DNA from: Strigamia acuminata
Lineage: Eukaryota; Arthropoda; Chilopoda; Geophilomorpha; Linotaeniidae
DNA length: 64,000 nucleotides
NCBI GenBank assembly: GCA_949358305.1
Contig: CASHSZ010000092.1
Location: 62,001-126,000, forward strand
Reading direction: 5' to 3'
This document shows positions 519-40,927 of this stretch, piece after piece. The translations under genes and the position numbers were made by a program. Within the stretch, counting starts at the first letter, position 1, and every line of letters begins with the position of its first letter. The notes under the pieces were generated by a model. That model saw only the letters and a list, made by a program, of their open reading frames with translations, searched no databases and was not told where the DNA came from.

Positions 519-675
519 TTTATTGTTGAGCAATTTCTTGGGCAGTTGCGCTCCTGTTGCTAGCATTGCCGCGCGTTCTCCGCGCGCGTACTCGCGTTTC
601 GCATCACACACATTCGGATTCGATGGCCTATCGCGGCGGCACATTGTGTGGCATAGCGCGGCAGGTTGCAATTGC

Positions 676-1089
676 TAATGCTACGGTCGACGGCGATTCG
701 CATGCGCTATCCGCTGCATCAAACCCCAAATACCGATCAAAAATCGCAGAAAACACTAATCCCGACCCAAAAACCGCCAAAATTACCCTCAACACACGCC
801 AACAACCTTCCACCACTTAAATTACACCGGAAAAAAACAATTTCAAACCGAAAAATCAACAAAAAAGGCCAAAAAAATATTGCAAACAAAGAGAAAAGAT
901 CAATTATCGAGGCAAATCCCCACCACAAAACAACGCATCGCCGGTATACACTTAAGCGTACAGTGCACAACACTACTGTTTATTTTCAATGATCCAATAA
1001 ATAAAATTTGAAACAAAGTTGAGTGGAATTGTACGTTTCTTGTATATTAAAGTTTTTATTTTGTTTGTTTACACTTAATTTTTTTTTTC
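676..1089 (+). repeat. M module, left copy (non-coding)
   Basis: This segment lies between U and S and has its inverted copy at 13340-13753. It is A-rich on this strand and ends in a poly-T stretch near 1080-1090. An AATAAATAAA motif lies at 996-1005. A 108-codon open frame (666-992) is Lys/Asn/Thr-rich through composition alone and matches no family I know. Confidence 0.6.
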
Positions 1090-2480: not shown

Positions 2481-2552
2481 GCGTTGAAAAAGGACAAAAC
2501 TCGTATTCGATTCGAAAGCGAATCGAATACGATTTTTGTCCTTTTTCAACGC
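2481..2552. repeat. 72-bp near-perfect hairpin at the array edge
   Basis: GCGTTGAAAAAGGACAAAA at the left end pairs with its reverse complement at the right end. The inner CGTATTCGATTCG pairs with CGAATCGAATACG around a short AAAG apex. About 34 bp are paired with one or two mismatches. It is the first and longest hairpin of the array; the mirror copy is 11877-11948. Confidence 0.85.
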
Positions 2553-2819
2553 AAAATTGTATTCGATTCGCTTTCGAATCGAATACGAGTTTTGCCCTTC
2601 TTCAACGCGAAATCGTATTCGACTCGCTTTCGAGTCGAATGCGAATTTTTCCCTTCTTCAACGCGAAATCGTATTCGACTCGTTTTCGAGTCGAGTACGA
2701 GTTTTGCCCTTCTTCAACGCGAAATCGTATTCGACTCGTTTTCGAGTCGAATACGAGTTTTGCCCTTCTTCAACGCGAAATCGTATTCGACTCGTTTTCG
2801 AGTCGAGTACGAGTTTTGC
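2553..2819 (+). repeat. 56-bp hairpin repeat array, left part (before Copia)
   Basis: These are tandem 56-bp units beginning CCCTTCTTCAACGCG. Each contains TCGTATTCGACTCG, a TTTT loop and CGAGTCGAATACGA (14-bp stem, sometimes one mismatch). A unit has eight CpGs. The array is interrupted at 2820 by Copia and resumes at 10015. The units near 2560-2660 are more diverged (TTCGATTCG, TTTTTCCC variants). Open frames run through in several phases because the unit has no stop codons and 56 is not a multiple of 3; they are not genes. Confidence 0.9.
2815..2819. repeat. Target-site duplication of Copia, left copy (TTTGC)
   Basis: TTTGC directly precedes the LTR here and directly follows the other LTR at 10015-10019. 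A 5-bp duplication is normal for Copia. Both copies come from the GAGTTTTGCCC junction of a 56-bp unit. Confidence 0.92.
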
Positions 2820-3355
2820 TGTAGGCAGAGAATGCGCAAAATATCGGTGTAAACCGATTGAAAGCGTGAATTGGCGCTGTGCGACCCGCACAGACGTTAA
2901 CGATACGACGCGTATCGTTTCGGAAATGCGCGCGGCCTAATGCCGCTTATATGCGCTAGCAAGAAGCACTAAAGGTGCTTTAAATCAAACACAATGAGTA
3001 AAACAATAAAAACGGTTTAATTAAATAGTAATACATTACAAATAGGTATCCAAACAGGTGGGAAAGCAGCTAAGTCATACACGGCTGTGTATGACGCCAT
3101 CTTGGATGAAAAAGCAATGGGTAGTGGCACCTAGTGCCGGGAATTTACATTAAGTTTGAACAAATCATTTGATAATAGGACAAATCCTAGCATAAAGTGA
3201 TAAAAGTATGGAATTACATACGGGACAGCGCAAAACGAATGGTAACATCGAAATCAATTAAATAATAACAAAGATGCGCTGTATACCTAAACACAAAGGG
3301 AAAACTAGGAAATAACAAATGTATTCATCGATACAAAATGGTCTTTTGACCAACA
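2820..3355 (-). repeat. Copia 3' LTR
   Basis: It is bounded by TGTTGG...CTACA in element orientation (TGTAGG at 2820 and CCAACA at 3355 on the + strand), giving the canonical TG...CA ends. It matches 9479-10014 at a constant offset of 6659. The inner part contains a short inverted repeat around ACGATACGACGCGTATCGT (2899-2917). Confidence 0.95.
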
Positions 3356-3367
3356 AATCCCCTCTTC
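3356..3367 (-). other. Copia polypurine tract
   Basis: In element orientation GAAGAGGGGATT lies immediately before the TGTTGG start of the 3' LTR. This is the expected site and composition for the plus-strand primer. Confidence 0.85.
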
Positions 3368-3565
3368 GATGGAAATATTTATCAGGGGACAAGATGAACG
3401 TAAACTGGAATTACAGTTGATAATCGTCGAGAAAAAAAAGATGATAAAGTCGAACCATCGGGCCGGGTACTGTCGTGGTTATCACTTAACTAAGCTCGGT
3501 ATTCCCACAGAAACCCGATGATCCTCGAAGTCGGGTGAAAAGAAACTAGGAATGTCACGATAAGT
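3368..3565 (-). other. Copia 3' untranslated stretch
   Basis: These ~200 bp separate the pol stop codon from the polypurine tract. No frame or structure stands out. Confidence 0.6.
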
Positions 3566-6500
3566 TTATGCTCGGAAGATCTTCGAAATCAATGATCGTA
3601 AACGTTCCGAAGATAGCCACTTTGTGAATATGTCGGCGGTATTAGCTTCGCCGGCTACCTTTCGAAGATCGAAGACTCCCGCAGTAAACCACTCCCTGAG
3701 CCAGTGAAACTTCACGCGAATATGCTTCGTCTTCGCGTTCTCGATATCATTAGATGTGAATTGAATCGAGGCCAGGGCGTCCGAATACACGATAGGTCGG
3801 GATAGACGATTGAGAATCGGGAATTCGGTGTACACGCTGTCGAGCCAGAAAATCTCCTTCACGCACTCAACCAGGGCGATAAATTCAGCTTCCATGGTTG
3901 AGCACGCTACGGTCGACTGTTTGCGACAGGACCAGCCAATAGGGACATTTCCAACGTATACGATGTATCCTCCGAAGCTCAATGATGTCTCCGGATCGCT
4001 TGCCCACGACGCGTCGGTAAATGCAGATAGTTGACTAGAAGAGCAACCGGATAACTCGACGCAAAGCTCCGCAGTGTTTGCCACGTACTGCAGAACCTGT
4101 AACAGGGCGCGGATGTGGGTTCGATTATAGCACGTGTTGTACTGTGCCAAAGCGATGACGGAATAGAGTATGTCGGGACGAGTTCTCGATGCCAAAAACA
4201 GAAGTGAACCGATTAGAGATCGGTATGGAAAATCTTCCAAGTTTTCGGTCGATCCTCTAACGAGTGTCGTTCCCGGGGTCACTGGTGTCTTGACGAGATT
4301 ATTGGTCGACGCCCCGAATTTCTTAACCAGTTTGGCGATATAAGCACGTTGCGTTATGAACGTGCGTCCGGCGTCGCGGATAAACTCGACGCCTAATAAC
4401 TTCGTGATTGGACCGAGGTTGACTATATCGAATTTCGAAGAGATGAGACGGATTAGCTGATTAAAAACGCTGTCGGACGCGTAAAACACGACGATATCGT
4501 CCACGTAGACCAGCATAACAGCTGTATTCCCGAACACGTAAACACAATTACATGCTGGCAGTCTTCGAAATCCGAGGGCCCGAAGTGTCTCGTCAAGTTT
4601 CTCGAACCATTGTCTCCCGGATTGGTGGAGGCCGTAAAGCGATTTGAGAAGAAGCCACACGTTATTTGGATCAGTGCATGTGGCACCTGCAGGGATTCTC
4701 ATGTATACGTTATGCTTTAATTCCCCGTACAGGTACGCACCTTTCACGTCGAGGTGGGCGTCCTGCCAACCACGCAATACGACGAGAAGACAGAAAAACA
4801 GACGGATCAATATGAAGTTCACGACTGGGCTAAACACCTCATCAAAATCGACTCCGAGGGTTTGATAAAAACCTTGTGCTACTAAGCGTGCTCGGTATCG
4901 GGTGACGGTTCCGGCTGCATCGGTTTTGAGTTTAAAAATCCACTTGCAGCCAAGAATAGTGGTGTCGGGTGGTCGGGGAACTTCTTTATAGATTTCTCGC
5001 TCTTTGAACATATCGAGTTCCTCTCCGATTGCTTCACGCCATTTCGGAGCGTCGTTGAACTTGGGAATTTCGGCGAATGAAGCCGGCTCGGTTCGGCACA
5101 GATGAGCCGCATGACGAACGCCCGGAAGAGTTGGCAATTTGTGTTCGAGATTACCGAAGAAAAACAGTCCGGGGTCGTAATCAATATTGTTCAACATACA
5201 ATACTCCTCGATGTCGTGATAAGATCTTAGACGGATCTTCGGAGTTGGAAAATAATAGACATCAATTAAGATCTTCCCGGGTTTTTGATCCTTTCTCAGG
5301 TGTTCCTCGCGTACCCATTCACGGCACTCGCCATCTCCACCGACGAATCGCCACTTATGAGTAGTGTGGCGCGCAGTCGCTGGTGAATTGGGATCGGGGT
5401 CGAAAATTTGCAACCCTTGCGCAGCCTGATCATCAACACGTTGCTGACGACGCGTCGTAATAAATCTCGGCGTCGGTACCGGTGTTTCACGGGGAAGAGA
5501 AGGCGCTGCCGATCGCTGAGGTGATGGCGGAGCGGATGTACGAGGAGTTGTCGGAGGCGATGGTCGTGCCGATTGTTCCGCTGACGCATCAACGTGTTCG
5601 GATGTTTCCGGATAAATTGACAATTCGTCCATCTCTCGGATGTCGTGGTCCGTATCACGTTCCTCTTCATATGAAATATGATGGGATTGTCGAAGAGACG
5701 CAGAACCCGGAGGTAAGGTCGCACATAAATCCAGCAATGCCCGTTCCGGAGTTGTCGGTGGTGGTATGTGGATGTGCGGAAAAGCCAGAGGCGTGTGCAT
5801 CGAAGCGGATGCCGTCGACACACGTTCGGAATCGTTCGCAGAATGTTCTGACGCCTCGGAATCAGATCCTTTCGGCCACTGATGGTAATGTAGGTTATCA
5901 TCAAATGTAACGGTTTGCTGTCCGGGACCAGTAAACGATTGTTGCGGCTGCTGCGTCGAAATTTTGATGGATTTCCGATACGACTGCCGCTCATCGATCT
6001 TAACGTGAATAGATTCGTAGACTTGGTTGTCAGTTGGGTTCCAAATTCTGTATCCACGGGTCCCTGAAGCGTAGCCGACTAAATATCCCTCCCAGGCCCG
6101 CGGATCCAGCTTCTTGCGTCCTGGTGCGGTGTAGTGCACCCAGCACTTGGAACCGACTTTTCGTAGATGTCGTAACGAAAGGGCTCTCTGTCGCCAAAGG
6201 ATATACGGAACTTGATTGTTAAGTCGAGAATGAGGGCTCCGATTCTTGATGTAGGCAAACGTGACCGCTAGCTCGGCCCAGAGCGCCTCCGGCAACTTAG
6301 TCTCGGATAAGACTGCACGAAAGTTGTCGGCCATTGTCCGGTTTATGCGCTCGGCCGTGCCGTTCATCTGTGGTGACGACGGATTTGTCCGTTGACCTTG
6401 GATGCCCTTGGCTTGTAGATATCGGAGAAACTCGTTTGACATAAACTCTCCGCCTCGATCAGTCCGAATCGCTTTTATTTGCGTGTCCTGGATTCTCTCA

Positions 6501-8569
6501 ACTCGAGCAACGAAGTCCTTAAAGGTTGCGAAAACCTGCGATTTCTGGGCTAGCGGTATAATCCAGCAATAGCGTGTTGCGTCGTCGATGACGGTAAGGA
6601 CAAAACGTGCTCCTCCAAACGATGGAACTGGGGCTGGCCCCCAAATATCCATGTGGAGAAGGTCCAAAGGCTTCGTAGTCGAGGGATTAGGATCAGGCTT
6701 ATGAGAAGCTTTTGTCGATTTGGCTATTCTGCAGTCGTTGCAGGCCAATTCCCTGCTCACTTCCCCTGGTGACATTCCGTAAACTTGGTCGTTTGCGGCC
6801 AATAGCTTCATTCCATTCGTATGAAGGTGGCCAAGACGGCTATGCCATAAGCCGGTGGCGTCCTTGACGGAGGCTGGATTGGCGATGACCTTCTTTTTAG
6901 GTTGAGACGGGTTGCCAAGGGGAGGAAAGGAATTTGCATTTGGAATTGCAATAGGAGTTGCCGTTGGGATTGACTGTAGGGCATTCGCATAGGAAGGAAG
7001 GGTGGTCAAATCGTTGTGGATTTGAGTAGGGATAGGAGGAGGAATCGGATTGGTTGGAATGGGAGCTTGTTGGACGGGAATTTGCTTCACGGGTTCAACT
7101 AGCGGCATTTCAATCCGAAAATCCGTAATTTCTCGTTGCTGTCCTTTTCCCTTTTTCGGTTTGGGAATTTTAATGAAATCCTCTTCCGTAGTCACGTACA
7201 TTTGCGGCGGTAGCGTTGGAGTCGGTTGTACAGTGGGAGAAACCGTTGTCGCAAATGTCGGATTTGTACACAAACCGTCCACATAATAAAGACCTCCTCT
7301 CTCCTTTGCACGAATAAGAGGGCTGCGAATGTCCGATTCGTAAACATGTATCTCACTATTGAAAATGTGGATATGATGTCGCGCCTTGTCTATCTTCGAA
7401 ACCGAAATCAAGTTTGCCTCGAAATTCGGCGCGTAAAGGACGTTTGTTAAATTCACGGTGCACCGGGTCTTATCGATCGCCATTAGCAAACGAACCGTTC
7501 CTTTTCCCGTCACTTGGGACTTTCCCTGTCCCAACTCGATGTCGAATGGAATGACATCGGTGAACTCGGTGAAACCGGCACGCACGTGAGATACGTGATC
7601 TGTAGCGCCGCAATCCAGAATCCACTCATTGGATTGCATAAAATGAGCGACTGGACGTTGGATAACCTGCGGCGCATTGACAAAATATGTCCCCTCTCGG
7701 TGTGGATGCGAGCTTTCTCGGGGACGCGCGTTGTTGGCCTTCGCAGCAGCGTTCTTGTTGCGCCGGCGACTCTTGCTCCGAGAATTACGTTGGAGTGAAA
7801 CCGTAGGTTGTCCCTGTTGTTGACGGGGTGGACGTGGACATCGGTTCGCGTAATGTCCGAGCTGGTCGCAATTAAAACACTTCACTGTCGAGATATCACG
7901 AGGTCCGGATTTATTTCGGGGTCGGAATTGTCCCTTCATAGACGTGTGAGCTGATGATTGGCTCGTTCCGAGCAACCCGATGGATTTGAGCCGCATGTGC
8001 TCGGAAATCAGCTGCTCGGCGACATCCTTCGGCGTGAATTGGGGATCCGGCCAGTGGTATATGGCAAATGTTGCCTGAGCATATTCAGGCGGCAGACACT
8101 TCAAATACTGGTATGCGTGGTGAACCGGGCTAATAATCTCGTTGACATCGCTTAGTTGCCGCACGTAATTGTCGACGCGGGCAATGAAGTCCGGCATATC
8201 TTCGCCAGGTTGGAGTTGGAGGCTGAGAAACTCCCAGCGCATCGCCGCTTGACGGGCTCTAGAGCTGGGTGCGTAGGTTTTCGCCAACTTGTCCCACGCC
8301 TCCTTTGGCGTGTTACAGGTTTCCAAAACTGTACGCTTGGCGGGGCTCACATGGATGTATATGTGGCCTAGGGCCTTGTCCTTCTTCACCATAAAGCGAT
8401 CAAGTTCTTTTGGCGTCAGGGTGGCAATGTGCTCTGCCTCCTTATCCTCCGTTACGTGACGCCAAAGCCCTTCCGATTTTAAGAGAAACTGCATCGACAA
8501 TCGCCATTGTTCATAATTGTCGACACCGAGAACCGGAATTAAACTGTTCGAGTTGGCCGCTTTCTGCAT
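3566..8569 (-). CDS. gag-pol: Copia Gag-Pol polyprotein with MBD-like insert
   Basis: This 1667-residue frame encodes capsid, protease, integrase and reverse transcriptase/RNase H for the cytoplasmic particle and nuclear integration. Domains in order: Copia-type Gag (about 1-200); zinc knuckle CX2CX4HX4C (C231, C234, H239, C244); protease with DCGA at 319-322, where most relatives have DSGA or DTGA; Pro-rich linker (435-560); integrase HHCC (H576, H581, C610, C613) and D641, D704, E740 (exact DX35E); Ser/Pro-rich linker (870-1060); MBD-like segment (1081-1139); reverse transcriptase with DVKGAYL (D1274) and YVDD (1355-1358); RNase H with D1519, E1560, D1597 and D1646. Gag and Pol share one frame, as is usual in Copia. 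At 1667 residues it is longer than the usual 1300-1450, because of the linkers and the insert. ATG 8569 is the first after an in-frame UGA at 8611-8609 and gives a typical Copia Gag start. All catalytic residues looked for are present. Confidence 0.97.
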   Translation of the reverse strand: MQKAANSNSLIPVLGVDNYEQWRLSMQFLLKSEGLWRHVTEDKEAEHIATLTPKELDRFMVKKDKALGHIYIHVSPAKRTVLETCNTPKEAWDKLAKTYAPSSRARQAAMRWEFLSLQLQPGEDMPDFIARVDNYVRQLSDVNEIISPVHHAYQYLKCLPPEYAQATFAIYHWPDPQFTPKDVAEQLISEHMRLKSIGLLGTSQSSAHTSMKGQFRPRNKSGPRDISTVKCFNCDQLGHYANRCPRPPRQQQGQPTVSLQRNSRSKSRRRNKNAAAKANNARPRESSHPHREGTYFVNAPQVIQRPVAHFMQSNEWILDCGATDHVSHVRAGFTEFTDVIPFDIELGQGKSQVTGKGTVRLLMAIDKTRCTVNLTNVLYAPNFEANLISVSKIDKARHHIHIFNSEIHVYESDIRSPLIRAKERGGLYYVDGLCTNPTFATTVSPTVQPTPTLPPQMYVTTEEDFIKIPKPKKGKGQQREITDFRIEMPLVEPVKQIPVQQAPIPTNPIPPPIPTQIHNDLTTLPSYANALQSIPTATPIAIPNANSFPPLGNPSQPKKKVIANPASVKDATGLWHSRLGHLHTNGMKLLAANDQVYGMSPGEVSRELACNDCRIAKSTKASHKPDPNPSTTKPLDLLHMDIWGPAPVPSFGGARFVLTVIDDATRYCWIIPLAQKSQVFATFKDFVARVERIQDTQIKAIRTDRGGEFMSNEFLRYLQAKGIQGQRTNPSSPQMNGTAERINRTMADNFRAVLSETKLPEALWAELAVTFAYIKNRSPHSRLNNQVPYILWRQRALSLRHLRKVGSKCWVHYTAPGRKKLDPRAWEGYLVGYASGTRGYRIWNPTDNQVYESIHVKIDERQSYRKSIKISTQQPQQSFTGPGQQTVTFDDNLHYHQWPKGSDSEASEHSANDSERVSTASASMHTPLAFPHIHIPPPTTPERALLDLCATLPPGSASLRQSHHISYEEERDTDHDIREMDELSIYPETSEHVDASAEQSARPSPPTTPRTSAPPSPQRSAAPSLPRETPVPTPRFITTRRQQRVDDQAAQGLQIFDPDPNSPATARHTTHKWRFVGGDGECREWVREEHLRKDQKPGKILIDVYYFPTPKIRLRSYHDIEEYCMLNNIDYDPGLFFFGNLEHKLPTLPGVRHAAHLCRTEPASFAEIPKFNDAPKWREAIGEELDMFKEREIYKEVPRPPDTTILGCKWIFKLKTDAAGTVTRYRARLVAQGFYQTLGVDFDEVFSPVVNFILIRLFFCLLVVLRGWQDAHLDVKGAYLYGELKHNVYMRIPAGATCTDPNNVWLLLKSLYGLHQSGRQWFEKLDETLRALGFRRLPACNCVYVFGNTAVMLVYVDDIVVFYASDSVFNQLIRLISSKFDIVNLGPITKLLGVEFIRDAGRTFITQRAYIAKLVKKFGASTNNLVKTPVTPGTTLVRGSTENLEDFPYRSLIGSLLFLASRTRPDILYSVIALAQYNTCYNRTHIRALLQVLQYVANTAELCVELSGCSSSQLSAFTDASWASDPETSLSFGGYIVYVGNVPIGWSCRKQSTVACSTMEAEFIALVECVKEIFWLDSVYTEFPILNRLSRPIVYSDALASIQFTSNDIENAKTKHIRVKFHWLREWFTAGVFDLRKVAGEANTADIFTKWLSSERLRSLISKIFRA
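5153..5329 (-). other. MBD-like (methyl-CpG-binding) domain in Copia Pol
   Basis: Residues 1081-1139 align without gaps to the MBD core at its two ends. W1085, R1087 and R1092-K1093 match MeCP2 W104, R106 and R111-K112. After a 1-residue length difference around G1098-K1099, DVY (D1103, Y1105) matches D121 and Y123. R1115-S1116 matches R133-S134, with the same 10-residue distance from the tyrosine. A DP plus aromatic motif (D1132-P1133, then FFF) resembles the DPNDFDF end of the fold. The four residues that read methyl-CpG in MeCP2 are thus all present. It lies after integrase and a low-complexity linker, a place comparable to chromodomains in chromoviruses. The fold and function are inferred from manual alignment. 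Confidence 0.72.
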
Positions 8570-9459
8570 CGTAGATCGATTCGCGAAGAGCGTAACACAA
8601 CGCGAAAATCACACTGACTCAGAGAGAGGCGCTGAAATGTCGCACAAGATTGGAGCACTTTTCACAATTTTCACAATTCGGAGCACTTCACTGCACGGTT
8701 CCCTCGGTGTTCGAGGCGAAAAACCACAAATTGGGCAATTCCTTCTGAAGGAATCAAATAACCTCCGGTTGCCAGTCTGAGAGGGTCCGATCGGCTTCCT
8801 GGAGCCGCGGGAAACCTCACTTGTACCACGACAAGCACAACCGGAGAATACGTGTAAGCTTGACCGGACTCGATCCAAGGGCAAACACGATTCTAAAGGA
8901 ACCCCCAAAAGCCTTAATAATATCTTAAAATTAACAATAGTATTTCGACAGAAGGAGAAATAGGTGAATCGATCGCGGTTGCGATCCTCGTGCAAATGAA
9001 GGCACGGCGCAGTTTTCTCGAAAAACTGGAAAAAGCGCAAATTCGGATTGAAAAATCCGAATTTCTTCTCGATAAATCGAGGCTCTTCGTCCGGAAAATA
9101 ATAGATCGACGATACTGTGCATACGCCGGGGTATACACAGCGGAATTCGATCCGTTTCTCGTTGAAAAACGTCGCTTCGACGTTGGCGAAGCGAAAATCG
9201 ACGTGAAATCTGCAAAAAGAAAGAATTTCTCTCGAAATTCGCGAATCCCGCGGAATTTCGGAGAAAATTAGACAAATAATGGTGTGATTGACGACCCTGG
9301 TCGTCTGTGAACGTCGATAAAACGTCGGCGTCGCAGGCGAGACGAAAATCGAGACAAAATGGCCGCCGAAAATCTGAAAATAAAAATATCGGCGCAAATT
9401 CGCGAATTTCGCGAAAAAACGTCGATAAATTAGGCGAATGGAGTGGTTGTTTAACCAAC
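8570..9459 (-). other. Long Copia 5' leader
   Basis: About 900 nt lie between PBS and gag ATG. An open frame of 313 codons begins in the 5' LTR (9550) and runs to a UGA at 8611-8609. It is in the same frame as gag-pol, and only 13 sense codons separate that UGA from the gag ATG. A second minus-strand frame (9461-8931) is also open, so the openness may partly reflect composition. No domain is recognisable in the leader frame. Confidence 0.55.
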
Positions 9460-9477
9460 AACCATCCTCTGCTACCA
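9460..9477 (-). other. Copia primer-binding site (initiator tRNA-Met)
   Basis: TGGTAGCAGAGGATGGTT begins one nucleotide after the end of the 5' LTR. It is complementary to 18 nt at the 3' end of metazoan-type initiator tRNA-Met, including CCA. Copia elements commonly use this tRNA, although many use an internal fragment. Confidence 0.9.
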
Positions 9478-9478
9478 A

Positions 9479-10014
9479 TGTAGGCAGAGAATGCGCAAAA
9501 TATCGGTGTAAACCGATTGAAAGCGTGAATTGGCGCTGTGCGACCCGCACAGACGTTAACGATACGACGCGTATCGTTTCGGAAATGCGCGCGGCCTAAT
9601 GCCGCTTATATGCGCTAGCAAGAAGCACTAAAGGTGCTTTAAATCAAACACAATGAGTAAAACAATAAAAACGGTTTAATTAAATAGTAATACATTACAA
9701 ATAGGTATCCAAACAGGTGGGAAAGCAGCTAAGTCATACACGGCTGTGTATGACGCCATCTTGGATGAAAAAGCAATGGGTAGTGGCACCTAGTGCCGGG
9801 AATTTACATTAAGTTTGAACAAATCATTTGATAATAGGACAAATCCTAGCATAAAGTGATAAAAGTATGGAATTACATACGGGACAGCGCAAAACGAATG
9901 GTAACATCGAAATCAATTAAATAATAACAAAGATGCGCTGTATACCTAAACACAAAGGGAAAACTAGGAAATAACAAATGTATTCATCGATACAAAATGG
10001 TCTTTTGACCAACA
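9479..10014 (-). repeat. Copia 5' LTR
   Basis: It is the same 536 bp as 2820-3355 with TG...CA ends. It should carry promoter and polyadenylation signals in minus orientation, but I could not place a TATA box or AATAAA with confidence. Confidence 0.95.
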
Positions 10015-10019
10015 TTTGC
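10015..10019. repeat. Target-site duplication of Copia, right copy (TTTGC)
   Basis: It is identical to 2815-2819 and directly abuts the CCAACA end of the LTR. The interrupted 56-bp unit resumes here. Confidence 0.92.
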
Positions 10020-10350
10020 CCTTCTTCAACGCGAAATCGTATTCGACTCGTTTTCGAGTCGAGTACGAGTTTTGCCCTTCTTCAACGCGAAATCGTATTC
10101 GACTCGTTTTCGAGTCGAATACGAGTTTTGCCCTTCTTCAACGCGAAATCGTATTCGACTCGTTTTCGAGTCGAGTACGAGTTTTGCCCTTCTTCAACGC
10201 GAAATCGTATTCGACTCGTTTTCGAGTCGAATACGAGTTTTGCCCTTCTTCAACGCGAAATCGTATTCGACTCGTTTTCGAGTCGAGTACGAGTTTTGCC
10301 CTTCTTCAACGCGAAATCGTATTCGACTCGTTTTCGAGTCGAATACGAGA
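10015..10350 (+). repeat. 56-bp hairpin repeat array, left part (after Copia)
   Basis: Six tandem units start at 10019, 10075 and every 56 bp onward. Their second stem arm alternates strictly between GAGTCGAGTACGAG and GAGTCGAATACGAG, so the effective repeat is a 112-bp dimer. Confidence 0.93.
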
Positions 10351-11334
10351 TAGTCGATGACCCGTTCCCGGACTTTGACTCGTACGACTCGTATTCGAGA
10401 TGTATTCGAGATGTATTCGAGATGTATTCGAATCGTATTCGAGTCGCATTCGAGATGGTCGATGATTTCCACTCGCTCGTATACGCGTTGTATACGAGCT
10501 CGTATTTTGATCGTAATCGTAAACGAATCGTTTACAAGTCGTATACAAGTTGTATACGACGTGTATACACCTCGTATACGAACGAAGTTTGGAAAATCCA
10601 CCGGATACTTACTACGACATGAAAACACATAGTAGTCACATACGTCTTATTTGGAAATTGTGTTTTCACAAACTTCGTTCGTATACGAGGTGTATACACG
10701 TCGTATACAACTTGTATACGACTTGTAAACGATTCGTTTACGAATACGATCAAAATACGAACTCGTAACAACTCGAATACGAATCAAAGTCCGGGAAACA
10801 AAAATCGACCATCTCGTATACGACTCGTATTCGAGATGTATTCGAGATGTATTCGAATCGTATTCGAGTCGCATTCGAGATGGTCGATGATTTCCACTCG
10901 CTCGTATACGCGTTGTATACGAGCTCGTATTTTGATCGTAATCGTAAACGAATCGTTTACAAGTCGTATACAAGTTGTATACGACGTGTATACACCTCGT
11001 ATACGAACGAAGTTTGGAAAATCCACCGGATACTTACTACGACATGAAAACACATAGTAGTCACATACGTCTTATTTGGAAATTGTGTTTTCACAAACTT
11101 CGTTCGTATACGAGGTGTATACACGTCGTATACAACTTGTATACGACTTGTAAACGATTCGTTTACGATTACGATCAAAATACGAGCTCGTATACAACGC
11201 GTATACGAGCGAGTGGAAATCATCGACCATCTCGAATGCGACTCGAATACGATTCGAATACATCTCGAATACATCTCGAATACATCTCGAATACGAGTCG
11301 TACGAGTCAAAGTCCGGGAACGGGTCATCGACTA
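10351..11334. repeat. Palindromic core of the foldback element (tandemly doubled hairpin)
   Basis: The core is built as a, loop, partial a', then a, loop, a'. Arm a is 10357-10590 and about 10800-11015. The same 79-bp loop occurs at 10591-10669 and 11016-11094 (offset 425). Arm a' is 10670 to about 10790, shortened, and 11095-11328, complete. The arms are made of short TCGTATAC, GTATACGA and ATTCGAGATGT permutations with many CpGs. The second hairpin is almost perfect over more than 200 bp per arm. Short open frames here come from this repetition and are not credible genes. Confidence 0.85.
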
Positions 11335-11876
11335 TCTCGTATTCGACTCGAAAACGAGTCGAATACGATTTCGCGTTGAAGAAGGGCAAAACTCGTATTC
11401 GACTCGAAAACGAGTCGAATACGATTTCGCGTTGAAGAAGGGCAAAACTCGTACTCGACTCGAAAACGAGTCGAATACGATTTCGCGTTGAAGAAGGGCA
11501 AAACTCGTATTCGACTCGAAAACGAGTCGAATACGATTTCGCGTTGAAGAAGGGCAAAACTCGTACTCGACTCGAAAACGAGTCGAATACGATTTCGCGT
11601 TGAAGAAGGGCAAAACTCGTACTCGACTCGAAAACGAGTCGAATACGATTTCGCGTTGAAGAAGGGCAAAACTCGTATTCGACTCGAAAACGAGTCGAAT
11701 ACGATTTCGCGTTGAAGAAGGGCAAAACTCGTACTCGACTCGAAAACGAGTCGAATACGATTTCGCGTTGAAGAAGGGAAAAATTCGCATTCGACTCGAA
11801 AGCGAGTCGAATACGATTTCGCGTTGAAGAAGGGCAAAACTCGTATTCGATTCGAAAGCGAATCGAATACAATTTT
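11335..11876 (-). repeat. 56-bp hairpin repeat array, right arm
   Basis: This is the inverted counterpart of 2553-2819 plus 10015-10350, with no Copia insertion. About nine units are present, with the same 14-bp stems and the G/A alternation less regular than on the left. The outermost units carry the same diverged TTCGATTCG and GGGAAAAATTCGC variants as the left edge. Confidence 0.9.
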
Positions 11877-11948
11877 GCGTTGAAAAAGGACAAAAATCGT
11901 ATTCGATTCGCTTTCGAATCGAATACGAGTTTTGTCCTTTTTCAACGC
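11877..11948. repeat. 72-bp near-perfect hairpin, right copy
   Basis: This is the mirror of 2481-2552, with the same stem and the same AAAG/CTTT apex. Confidence 0.85.
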
Positions 11949-13339: not shown

Positions 13340-13753
13340 GAAAAAAAAAATTAAGTGTAAACAAACAAAATAAAAACTTTAATATACAAGAAACGTACAA
13401 TTCCACTCAACTTTGTTTCAAATTTTATTTATTGGATCATTGAAAATAAACAGTAGTGTTGTGCACTGTACGCTTAAGTGTATACCGGCGATGCGTTGTT
13501 TTGTGGTGGGGATTTGCCTCGATAATTGATCTTTTCTCTTTGTTTGCAATATTTTTTTGGCCTTTTTTGTTGATTTTTCGGTTTGAAATTGTTTTTTTCC
13601 GGTGTAATTTAAGTGGTGGAAGGTTGTTGGCGTGTGTTGAGGGTAATTTTGGCGGTTTTTGGGTCGGGATTAGTGTTTTCTGCGATTTTTGATCGGTATT
13701 TGGGGTTTGATGCAGCGGATAGCGCATGCGAATCGCCGTCGACCGTAGCATTA
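13340..13753 (-). repeat. M module, right copy
   Basis: This is the inverted partner of 676-1089, including the A-rich end and the T-rich tract near 13550-13600. No coding signature is visible. Confidence 0.6.
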
Positions 13754-14428
13754 GCAATTGCAACCTGCCGCGCTATGCCACACAATGTGCCGCCGCGATA
13801 GGCCATCGAATCCGAATGTGTGTGATGCGAAACGCGAGTACGCGCGCGGAGAACGCGCGGCAATGCTAGCAACAGGAGCGCAACTGCCCAAGAAATTGCT
13901 CAACAATAAAAGGCACGTGGAAGCACGTGCCTGAAACAATAGGCACTTCAAATAAAGTTATTGTTAAAAAACGGGCTTGAAAACCAACAATTACACAATA
14001 ATTAAGGGGCAAGAAATGAACTTTGCTGCAATGCAAAGTTCTCAAAATACAGAGAAATGAAAGTTACACTTGTATAAAGAATTGACAATGTTTGAAACCA
14101 ATAAAAACTACAAAAACACACTTGTAAAAAACCCAAAACAACCCCCAGAATGAATTATTTGACTCAAATTAACCCTAAAACGGTCTTGGAGGTCGTGCAG
14201 ACGACAGAGTCGGATCGGAAGGTTGCTAAAACCTGACGCCAAAACTAGCAATGGGACAGCTAGTTAGAAAACAGCTTTTTCATCAATCATGAACGCTGAA
14301 AACCTCACCCAGGGGTAGAAAATGATGGAGAGAACGTTTTCGCCATCTAAAACGGTCTAAAACGGGTCTAAAATGCCTAAACCGGCGCCTGGAACGTGGC
14401 GCAGTTGTTGGGTCAAATATTGTCAAAA
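13754..14428 (-). repeat. U module, copy 4 (outer right)
   Basis: This is the inverted partner of 1-675 and ends level with the window's first base. Unlike the left arm, its outer flank can be seen, and it is another S copy. Confidence 0.85.
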
Positions 14429-16362: not shown

Positions 16363-17398
16363 TTAAAACCTATGTACATTTGTTCTTAAAACATAAATAG
16401 AATTTAGACAAAATAAAGCAATGAAACCAAGGCAAAACTCAATCTAAAATATACTTAACAATTAACAAAGCAAAAAGAAGATTAACAACCAATGGCAAGG
16501 CAGCCTACCTCAATACTCATCTCTGCACTTGTTTGTAAAGTTAAGTGAAATTAACAAATGTACAGTTAAAACACTTCTATAAAATCACAAAGTATTAAAA
16601 TAAATATTGCTACCCAGCTTGCTATGTTCTAGGAAAATCTCCCAGCAGTGCTCAAACACAAAGAGAACCGCTCCTTTCCAAAATGGCGGCCAGGCAGTTG
16701 CTAACTGCCGTGAATGAGAGCAGAAACGAGTCAAACAGACTTCCAGGGTCGACCAAGGCATGACAACAGCGCTGGGACTTCCAAACTCAGTGTGGGGACG
16801 TTGCAGGGAAGCCAAACGAGGCGTTTCCTGGTCTCTCTCTCTCCCGAACACGATCCCAATGCGCTCATGTGCACTCAAATGCCAAGGACACCCAAAACCG
16901 TTTGTTTCTTGCTGTCCCACGTCTCCAATGAGCATCAAAACACTAAAACATCCAGCAAAGGTTAGCAACCGTCAAAACAATATGTAAAACCTCTTTAAAA
17001 CTAATAAATACACAGTTTCCTGAATCCAGTTGACCTATGCTATGGCGATTATGCTGAGAATATACACTCAGCTCATTCACAAGTGTACTGGAACCCGAAC
17101 CGAACACAAAAACGTCTCAAAAGCAAATAACAGAGGTAAACAACTAATAACAAATACTAAAACAACCACAAAACGATCAAAGACATATCCCCTGACCAAT
17201 TCCAGGTGCGATCGACAACACGACAACCGCCGAGGTCTGCTCTGCATGCGACCGTCGATCAAAACCGGCAACTGGACATCTCAGATATGTCCCAAACTCA
17301 TGGTCAAAACTATGGACTAAAATTAAAAAGATCTTCTACCATTTTCAGAGGTGAAACGCGAGTCTTCTAATCTTTTTGTTGCGTCCTTGCTCGCAACA
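16363..17398 (-). repeat. 3' LTR of the LARD-like element, truncated
   Basis: It matches 23393-24428 and lacks the last ~470 bp (the part with AATAAA and U5). The break is at TTAAAACC; the preceding sequence is unrelated. Confidence 0.85.
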
Positions 17399-22922: not shown

Positions 22923-24428
22923 TGTAGCAAACAACCTTGGATCTCACAGGAAAAGACTGGCGAATTGGTCACCAAACTCTGGAAACCGCCCGAGACTGTA
23001 TAGTGGATGATGAAACAAGTTGAATTCTCAGCCCAAGTTGTAGGCCTAAATGCATCTGGAGAAATTAGGCCCAACTGCATTTAGTTGAAGTGATTAAAGC
23101 AGCTCTCTGGATACTGGGGAAAAAACCTTGTGCCTTCAGTGAGGAGGAGAGCATGCAAAACTCTCTACTCACTCATTATCATGTTTCTTGTAGCAGAAAA
23201 CCAGATCAGAAATGATTCACCCAAAGCAGAGTAAAAACACATCAACTGGCTTTATTCTTAACAACAGATAACAACTATTGCTTCTTTAGCAACCTACTCT
23301 AACAACAGTGCGCCTAGCAACTAAATCATAGCAACAACAAGCTACAATGCAATGATGCAACAATGGCGTAATTCAATCTGAACTAAAATAGCTTAAAACC
23401 TATGTACATTTGTTCTTAAAACATAAATAGAATTTAGACAAAATAAAGCAATGAAACCAAGGCAAAACTCAATCTAAAATATACTTAACAATTAACAAAG
23501 CAAAAAGAAGATTAACAACCAATGGCAAGGCAGCCTACCTCAATACTCATCTCTGCACTTGTTTGTAAAGTTAAGTGAAATTAACAAATGTACAGTTAAA
23601 ACACTTCTATAAAATCACAAAGTATTAAAATAAATATTGCTACCCAGCTTGCTATGTTCTAGGAAAATCTCCCAGCAGTGCTCAAACACAAAGAGAACCG
23701 CTCCTTTCCAAAATGGCGGCCAGGCAGTTGCTAACTGCCGTGAATGAGAGCAGAAACGAGTCAAACAGACTTCCAGGGTCGACCAAGGCATGACAACAGC
23801 GCTGGGACTTCCAAACTCAGTGTGGGGACGTTGCAGGGAAGCCAAACGAGGCGTTTCCTGGTCTCTCTCTCTCCCGAACACGATCCCAATGCGCTCATGT
23901 GCACTCAAATGCCAAGGACACCCAAAACCGTTTGTTTCTTGCTGTCCCACGTCTCCAATGAGCATCAAAACACTAAAACATCCAGCAAAGGTTAGCAACC
24001 GTCAAAACAATATGTAAAACCTCTTTAAAACTAATAAATACACAGTTTCCTGAATCCAGTTGACCTATGCTATGGCGATTATGCTGAGAATATACACTCA
24101 GCTCATTCACAAGTGTACTGGAACCCGAACCGAACACAAAAACGTCTCAAAAGCAAATAACAGAGGTAAACAACTAATAACAAATACTAAAACAACCACA
24201 AAACGATCAAAGACATATCCCCTGACCAATTCCAGGTGCGATCGACAACACGACAACCGCCGAGGTCTGCTCTGCATGCGACCGTCGGTCAAAACCGGCA
24301 ACTGGACATCTCAGATATGTCCCAAACTCATGGTCAAAACTATGGACTAAAATTAAAAAGATCTTCTACCATTTTCAGAGGTGAAACGCGAGTCTTCTAA
24401 TCTTTTTGTTGCGTCCTTGCTCGCAACA
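22923..24428 (-). repeat. 5' LTR of the LARD-like element, complete
   Basis: It is 1506 bp and is the reverse complement of the solo LTRs at 46045-47550 and 50963-52468, with the same length. Its outer end abuts satellite at TAAG (24429), the same junction as the solo LTRs. Its inner end abuts the internal region. Confidence 0.92.
23251..23256 (-). promoter_or_regulatory. Polyadenylation signal AATAAA in LTR
   Basis: AATAAA in element orientation; the counterparts are at 47217-47222 and 52135-52140. It lies about 330 bp before the LTR end, which suggests the R/U5 boundary follows shortly. The truncated LTR at 16363 lacks it. Confidence 0.6.
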
Positions 24429-40925: not shown

Positions 40926-40927
40926 CT
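40926..40927. other. Polarity switch of the satellite array
   Basis: Forward monomers stop inside GACTTTTGATCT, and reverse monomers start inside CTTACATTGG. CT is shared by both sides. Neither half-monomer is complete, so the joint lies inside a monomer. No filler or mobile-element sequence lies at the joint. Confidence 0.95.

Follow-up and report, generated by a model that had tools for sequence, protein, structure and literature searches.

An intact Copia element in the window

The window analysed here is a 64,000-nucleotide stretch of the Strigamia acuminata genome (contig CASHSZ010000092.1, 62,001–126,000; positions below are those of the window), and it contains an intact Copia retrotransposon, at 2820–10014 on the minus strand, whose polyprotein carries a methyl-CpG-binding domain (MBD) between integrase and reverse transcriptase (RT). 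A 5-bp target-site duplication (TSD), TTTGC, borders the element, the two 536-bp long terminal repeats (LTRs) show no differences, and the domain order, gag_pre-integrs and rve followed by RVT_2, together with LTRs and TSD identifies it as Ty1/Copia. It was inserted into a 56-bp CpG-rich satellite and is itself CpG-rich, with an observed/expected CpG ratio (o/e) of 1.38. The features are listed with their evidence in brackets.

2501..2819, no strand: 56-bp CpG-rich satellite, left part (repeat analysis)
2815..2819, no strand: target-site duplication TTTGC, left (flank sequence ends in TTTGC before the element)
2820..3355, minus strand: 3′ LTR, 536 bp, identical to the 5′ LTR (LTR comparison)
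3566..8569, minus strand, read from 8569 to 3566: Gag-Pol polyprotein, single frame of 1667 residues (open reading frame)
4277..4996, minus strand: reverse transcriptase RVT_2, residues 1192–1431 (E 3.7e-57)
5126..5323, minus strand: MBD, residues 1083–1148 (profile, alignment, predicted fold)
5978..6187, minus strand: SH3-like integrase part, residues 795–864 (E 5.4e-25)
6371..6880, minus strand: integrase, gag_pre-integrs 564–618 and rve core 632–733 (domain scan)
7382..7624, minus strand: Pol_BBD/protease region, residues 316–396 (E 1.5e-16)
7835..7882, minus strand: CCHC zinc knuckle, residues 230–245 (22.3 bits)
7985..8494, minus strand: gag, Retrotran_gag_2, residues 26–195 (E 1.1e-27)
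9462..9477, minus strand: probable primer-binding site TGGTAGCAGAGGATGG (same motif after the LTR in L120 and L121)
9479..10014, minus strand: 5′ LTR, 536 bp (LTR comparison)
10015..10019, no strand: target-site duplication TTTGC, right (TTTGC after the element)
10015..10349, no strand: 56-bp CpG-rich satellite, right part, CpG o/e 2.77 (repeat analysis)

We take the motif at the probable primer-binding site to be the complement of the 3′ end of initiator tRNA-Met. The MBD lies behind the SH3-like part of integrase (795–864) and ahead of RVT_2 (from 1192). An original prediction, made from the letters of the window alone, had placed an MBD-like stretch here with correct coordinates; its frame is that of the minus strand, the plus strand being interrupted by stops.

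The segment between integrase and RT is an MBD

Profile, predicted fold and purifying selection confirm the polyprotein segment 1083–1148 as an MBD. All the residues on which the prediction had relied (W1085, R1087, R1092-K1093, G1098-K1099, D1103-V-Y1105, R1115-S1116) are present and are followed by DYDPGLFFF, and its spacings, 7 from W to R, 11 from R to D and 10 from Y to R, are correct. R1092, D1103, Y1105 and R1115 of the window copy align with MeCP2 R111, D121, Y123 and R133, in what we take to be the MeCP2 numbering.

Taken singly, the window copy falls short of the assignment: neither the whole polyprotein nor a 190-residue piece matches PF01429 at E ≤ 1, a 110-residue segment reaches 13.9 bits (E 0.043), below the PF01429 cut-off of 21, and a single-sequence search of the PDB with the window segment gave no match. 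It is a divergent MBD under the Pfam cut-off, and we accept it as an MBD because the matches of sister elements make the case. PF01429 matches in all 14 aligned segments at E ≤ 1, and one sister copy matches MBD2 of known structure (5e-12). With a profile built from 12 rows of other families, from which the window and its closest relative, L058, were excluded, the whole window polyprotein scored 41.1 bits at 1083–1148. The real segments reached 41–47 bits with this profile, and the best of 1000 shuffles of the window segment 6.8 bits. Thus, the Pfam check proposed in the prediction succeeded through the sisters and the leave-family-out profile, and failed for the window copy alone. The other proposed check, a fold prediction, gave a model that resembles MBD structures. 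A chance likeness of a disordered integrase–RT linker to an MBD, for which the sub-threshold score and the missing PDB match of the window copy could be cited, is refuted by the leave-family-out profile (41.1 vs 6.8 bits), with the sister profiles and the predicted fold on the same side, and we regard it as extremely improbable.

The genome, 237.5 Mb in 157 contigs, was searched with PF01429, and 150 of 1092 first-look candidates were scored; all 150 exceed the cut-off, 149 of them at E below 1e-8. Copia-like frames hold 27 of 28 translated loci (L001–L008 and L039–L058, 27 from this search and one from a search with the window family; L002, which has a stop inside, was called Copia by its likeness to L001, and L006 is a 166-residue frame only). 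The remaining locus, L057, is a 57-residue open exon of a host gene, which its sequence suggests to be BAZ2-like. The predicted location of the MBD between integrase and RT was borne out in intact frames, and the domain recurs across the Copia families of the genome. In viral contigs, a search for relatives gave eight pattern matches, none of which was confirmed.

Families, age and constraint

Grouping by sequence and frame length divides the 14 aligned segments into nine groups, A (window), A′ (L058), B, C, D, E, F, G and H, or into eight families if A and A′ are merged. W1085, R1087, R1092, D1103, R1115 and S1116 are invariant in all 14, and the places of MeCP2 R111, D121 and R133, the CpG-contacting residues of MeCP2, are unchanged in every row. 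The place of Tyr123 holds Tyr in A, A′, E, F, G and H, and is occupied by Ile in B, Val in C and Trp in D. Tyr123 is needed for methyl selectivity, and a Tyr-to-Phe replacement at this place in mammalian MBD3 accompanies the loss of that selectivity. With loci L005, L008, L042, L045, L047, L052 and L054, families B, C and D supply natural variants in which methyl selectivity could be compared.

In the genome, the places related to the window MBD-Copia number in the hundreds. Among them 37, including the window, are 100% identical over a 180-residue query, and together with the identical LTRs they show recent activity of the window family. Frames are open, at 1676–1686 residues, in 35 of the 37 places (the other two measure 901 and 3432). 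With these open frames and a low ratio of nonsynonymous to synonymous substitution rates (dN/dS) in the MBD, frameshift or decay of the segment in all sisters was rejected; the prediction had named absence or frameshift in all of them as a possible outcome.

The MBD continues directly into conserved RT in all ten aligned copies (groups A, A′, B, C, D, E and F), where the joint MBD–RT piece is 44–83% identical to that of the window; judging from this contiguity, the MBD was most likely captured before the MBD-Copia families split. In 6 of 10 pairs dS was unsaturated, and in these six, which share sequences and are not independent, dN/dS was 0.04–0.10 for the MBD and 0.14–0.31 for the linker upstream of it. 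For RT, dN/dS was 0.57 (L003–L004) and 0.16 (L054–L049, frames ending early). The L058 segment, which begins three residues late (53 codons), was not used for the MBD as its dS is saturated. Where measurable, the MBD is kept under purifying selection.

Insertion sites are dense in CpG

Both edges and a 5-bp TSD were recovered in 16 of 20 other window-family copies, and in the remaining four one edge was not found. The flanks of the window family (17 sites, window included) hold 7.9 CpG per 100 bp vs 4.1 in 20 random loci (p 3e-4), at a GC content of 0.515 vs 0.388 (p 1e-4); their mean CpG o/e, 1.21, is indistinct from that of the random loci (p 0.39). In families B and C, where 8 of 10 copies were usable and TSDs, for which displacements of up to 3 bases were allowed, are less certain, the flanks hold 8.1 CpG per 100 bp (p 0.009) with a mean CpG o/e of 1.76 vs 0.98 (p 0.001), and their GC content does not differ from that of the random loci. 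CpG-rich tandem repeats host sites A01, A05, C01, C04 and the window element, and sites A13, A17, C01, C03 and B07 lie in or beside older Copia. On average, the target DNA is not CpG-depleted.

In the window, CpG-rich satellites with units of 56 and 425 bp (o/e ∼2.7) occupy 2501–2819, 10388–11208 and 10015–11928; they have been hit by the window element, and elsewhere by a family-C element (site C04).

MBD-Copia and other Copia differ in chromosomal distribution

MBD-Copia places are concentrated in certain terminal sixths of contigs and on contig C13. For a rule-based count, we used a reference list of 226 places from the PF01429 and window-family searches, 224 of them distinct on ten contigs, which leaves out small contigs, window-search rows of ∼80% identity, the first PF01429 rows and the host exon. 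Sixths were called rich if their density was at least 2× (or 1.5×) the mean of the 224 places, and make up 19.8% (22.9%) of the length. The first test set comes from 59 F-family rows covering the MBD among the listed rows of 165 matches, without partial rows, rows of ∼40% identity and small contigs; one row was already in the reference, and 32 (38) of the other 58 places lie in rich sixths. The second test set takes 131 of 150 rows, after removal of the three most similar to the query and of 16 from other contigs, and 58 (68) of the 131 are in rich sixths. On the same ten contigs, the corresponding figures are 3 (3) of 54 for Copia family X, the class of ∼204–207 bits with mostly 1368–1373-residue frames, and 19 (20) of 137 for all other Copia, in which one contig C13 row of 203.9 bits, not assigned to X, is included. 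Thus, the rich sixths, 20–23% of the length, hold 44–66% of the MBD-Copia test sets vs 6% and 14–15% of other Copia. The 137 other-Copia places are all more than 3 kb away from the nearest listed MBD place.

The bias is already seen in young copies: 17 of 30 window-family copies of 100% identity are in terminal sixths or on contig C13, where 36.6% are expected by length, vs 12 of 72 for families X and Y (Y being the class with mostly 1388-residue frames; p 9e-5). Two earlier counts, one with fixed regions picked from the same data (73 of 226 vs 10 of 145, p 2e-9) and one with regions picked by eye while the test lists were visible (44 of 59, 73 of 131 and 17 of 30 vs 3 of 54), were replaced by the rule-based count, which gives lower fractions in the same direction. 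MBD-bearing and other Copia therefore differ strongly in chromosomal distribution, and the MBD may steer insertion.

Contig C13 has 10.3 Mb and many MBD-Copia copies, some of them diverged or shortened, with only 2 listed other Copia; this may mark a B chromosome, one that does not recombine or one that is heterochromatic.

Other repeats

A 140-bp satellite spans 39 kb of the window (24487–64000), with a switch of orientation near 40926. It is strongly CpG-depleted (o/e 0.22), which the left part of the window mostly is not, and it is also found on contig C1 at 65.87 and 66.01 Mb, within the MBD-rich end of that contig, and on contig C8 at 7.62 Mb, outside the rich sixths. Two further repeats were noticed as stop-to-stop frames: window 530–989 recurs inverted at 13440–13899 with identical frames, and 16588–17317 recurs directly at 23618–24347 with small differences. 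A TTAGG pattern, read as telomere repeats, has 18,915 genome-wide matches vs 21 in a reversed control, and was not found in the fetched loci.

Are the targets methylated?

The original prediction had the domain lead integration to methylated DNA, and the MBD would then read symmetrically methylated CpG. Counterparts of R111, D121, Y123 and R133 in the window copy, and Tyr in groups A, A′, E, F, G and H, speak for such reading. Moreover, the host is probably able to methylate CpG, as judged from its gene complement: DNA_methylase matches occur in five host regions, DNMT1-RFD lies beside three of these and at one further place, and an MBD2/3 gene is present (MBD_C match, MBD exon seen). Three loci are DNMT1-like, with RFD and methylase (contig C3 at 35.92 and 32.74 Mb, contig C1 at 11.84 Mb), and probably make up a DNMT1 family; the wasp Nasonia likewise has three DNMT1 genes.

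Against this, 17 diverged copies show no CpG-to-TpG excess: at third codon positions 80 of 527 CpG sites vs 306 of 918 other sites had changed, and in 12 close pairs, which share sequences, differences fall on 64 of 1084 CpG sites and on 213 of 2098 C/G sites outside CpG. The missing decay is weak counter-evidence only, because the old copies are partly other subfamilies under selection; germline methylation of the element copies, tried in this way, is thus weakly contradicted and not disproved. Methylation in the germ line should have left the flanks depleted of CpG, but their mean o/e values are 1.21 and 1.76. Families B, C and D lack the Tyr, and in many insects 5-methylcytosine (5mC) is found in gene bodies, not in transposons. 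This indirect evidence leans against methylated targets, and the claim of the prediction is so far unsupported. A methylation-dependent tether is possible and not favoured, and a tether to CpG DNA fits better; we consider it rather improbable that the MBD directs integration to methylated DNA. A variant, in which the integrase of the clade reads DNA methylation through a captured MBD to locate methylated CpG chromatin, the elements diversified into several families, and some families later shifted to general CpG recognition by replacing the Tyr, appears doubtful to a like degree.

A proposed tether to CpG-dense DNA

We favour, at a probability of roughly 0.6, a reading in which a Copia clade acquired and kept an MBD that, carried by integrase, tethers integration to CpG-dense, heterochromatin-like DNA. 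A domain of the MBD1/MBD2/MBD4/MeCP2 type was acquired and then retained in about eight families. Because it is located between integrase core and RT, presumed proteolysis would leave it as the C-terminal tail of integrase, where it would most likely anchor the integration complex in satellites, in older copies of Copia and at certain chromosome ends. This role is suggested by analogy to the targeting domains of Ty5 and Ty1, and we infer that the MBD causes the chromosomal distribution by binding CpG DNA. Of the targeting module foreseen in the original prediction, the differing distribution and the CpG-dense flanks could be established; the dependence on the MBD is the inferred part.

Several observations weigh against the tether or qualify its evidence. 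The right flank of B06 lies inside a tandem neighbour element (the other seven B/C sites have ∼7.8 CpG per 100 bp), and at window-family site A03 the surrounding repeat is CpG-poor, with 3.0 CpG per 100 bp. Two of the 20 random loci, R13 and R19, are also in Copia, and R18 is in the 140-bp satellite. CpG density has a shallow peak at the insertion site, dropping from 8.2 per 100 bp to 7.1 over a distance of 450 bp, and, being compared with random loci, it may reflect the compartment only. The families without Tyr123 (B, C and D) are among the commonest in the PF01429 genome search, and the CpG-to-TpG excess was missing. Family X was found to lack an MBD in the one linker examined (L160, the sole copy checked), the MBD is not the sole difference between families with and without it, and the chromosomal pattern could stem from selection.

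An alternative explanation does without steering. The MBD would regulate expression or protect cDNA, by binding the CpG-rich or methylated cDNA or copies of the element itself or by recruiting corepressors, and the chromosomal pattern would be due to selection or to some other portion of integrase. The distribution evidence is indeed a correlation, the element is CpG-rich (o/e 1.38), and the MBD is a part of Pol that proteolysis may or may not leave on integrase. However, the MBD follows integrase, a position that we take known targeting modules (Ty5, chromoviruses) to share, and the bias is present in young identical copies (17 of 30 vs 12 of 72, 36.6% expected). We therefore hold this explanation to be unlikely, and prefer the tether to CpG-dense DNA.

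If it acts in this way, MBD-Copia may help to account for the accumulation of a single class of element at chromosome ends and in satellites. The genome offers a natural experiment, in which families with an intact CpG-reading site, Tyr-less families and other Copia coexist with differing distributions, and the use of 5mC marks by transposons becomes directly testable.

Comparison with known systems

Among host proteins, the closest likeness is to MBD2, MBD1, MBD4 and MeCP2, in profile, predicted fold, the R111/D121/R133 residues and, in six of nine groups, Tyr123. The Copia MBD differs in being part of a polyprotein, in one extra residue between R111 and D121 in the window family and in the loss of Tyr123 in three families. 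Chromoviruses carry a host-like chromatin reader, the chromodomain, fused to the integrase end of Pol throughout their clade. MBD-Copia resembles them in having a host-type chromatin reader at the integrase end that is retained across a clade, but chromoviruses belong to the Ty3/Gypsy superfamily, with RT before integrase, and read histone methylation, whereas the MBD is of the type that reads CpG DNA.

The targeting domain of Ty5 sits in the C-terminal part of its integrase. It consists of six residues that bind Sir4, and insertion is biased to heterochromatin and chromosome ends (PMC7175516); insertion is redirected when Ty1 and Ty5 trade targeting domains (PMC11054761). Both Ty5 and MBD-Copia are of the Copia superfamily with a module in integrase, and the insertion bias of Ty5 is to heterochromatin and ends. 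In contrast to the six-residue contact with the Sir4 protein, the module of MBD-Copia is a folded domain of ∼60 residues that would bind DNA, to judge from its sequence class.

Retrotransposons that carry DNA methyltransferases (DNMTs) occur in dinoflagellates and charophytes, Copia elements there being without a DNMT domain, and the main text of that paper does not mention MBD or methyl-CpG (PMC5890265). They too acquired a component of the CpG-methylation machinery, but a writer, not a reader. In an account of LTR elements, the chromodomain and a DnaQ-like exonuclease are named as well-known accessory domains and an MBD is not mentioned (PMC6338049). A plant LTR survey saw no domain gain in its Copia-type elements, and notes env-like genes in some Copia (PMC9289625); passages of another paper use MBD for host proteins (PMC8616336). 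No MBD in a retrotransposon was found in the open-access literature searched, in agreement with the prediction, which knew of no Copia lineage with this domain; such an element may already have been described as a named repeat. Thus, targeting through histone readers, as with the chromodomain, and through protein contacts, as in Ty1 and Ty5, is known, and a retrotransposon with a domain of the class by which animals read DNA methylation appears, on these searches, to be new beside them.
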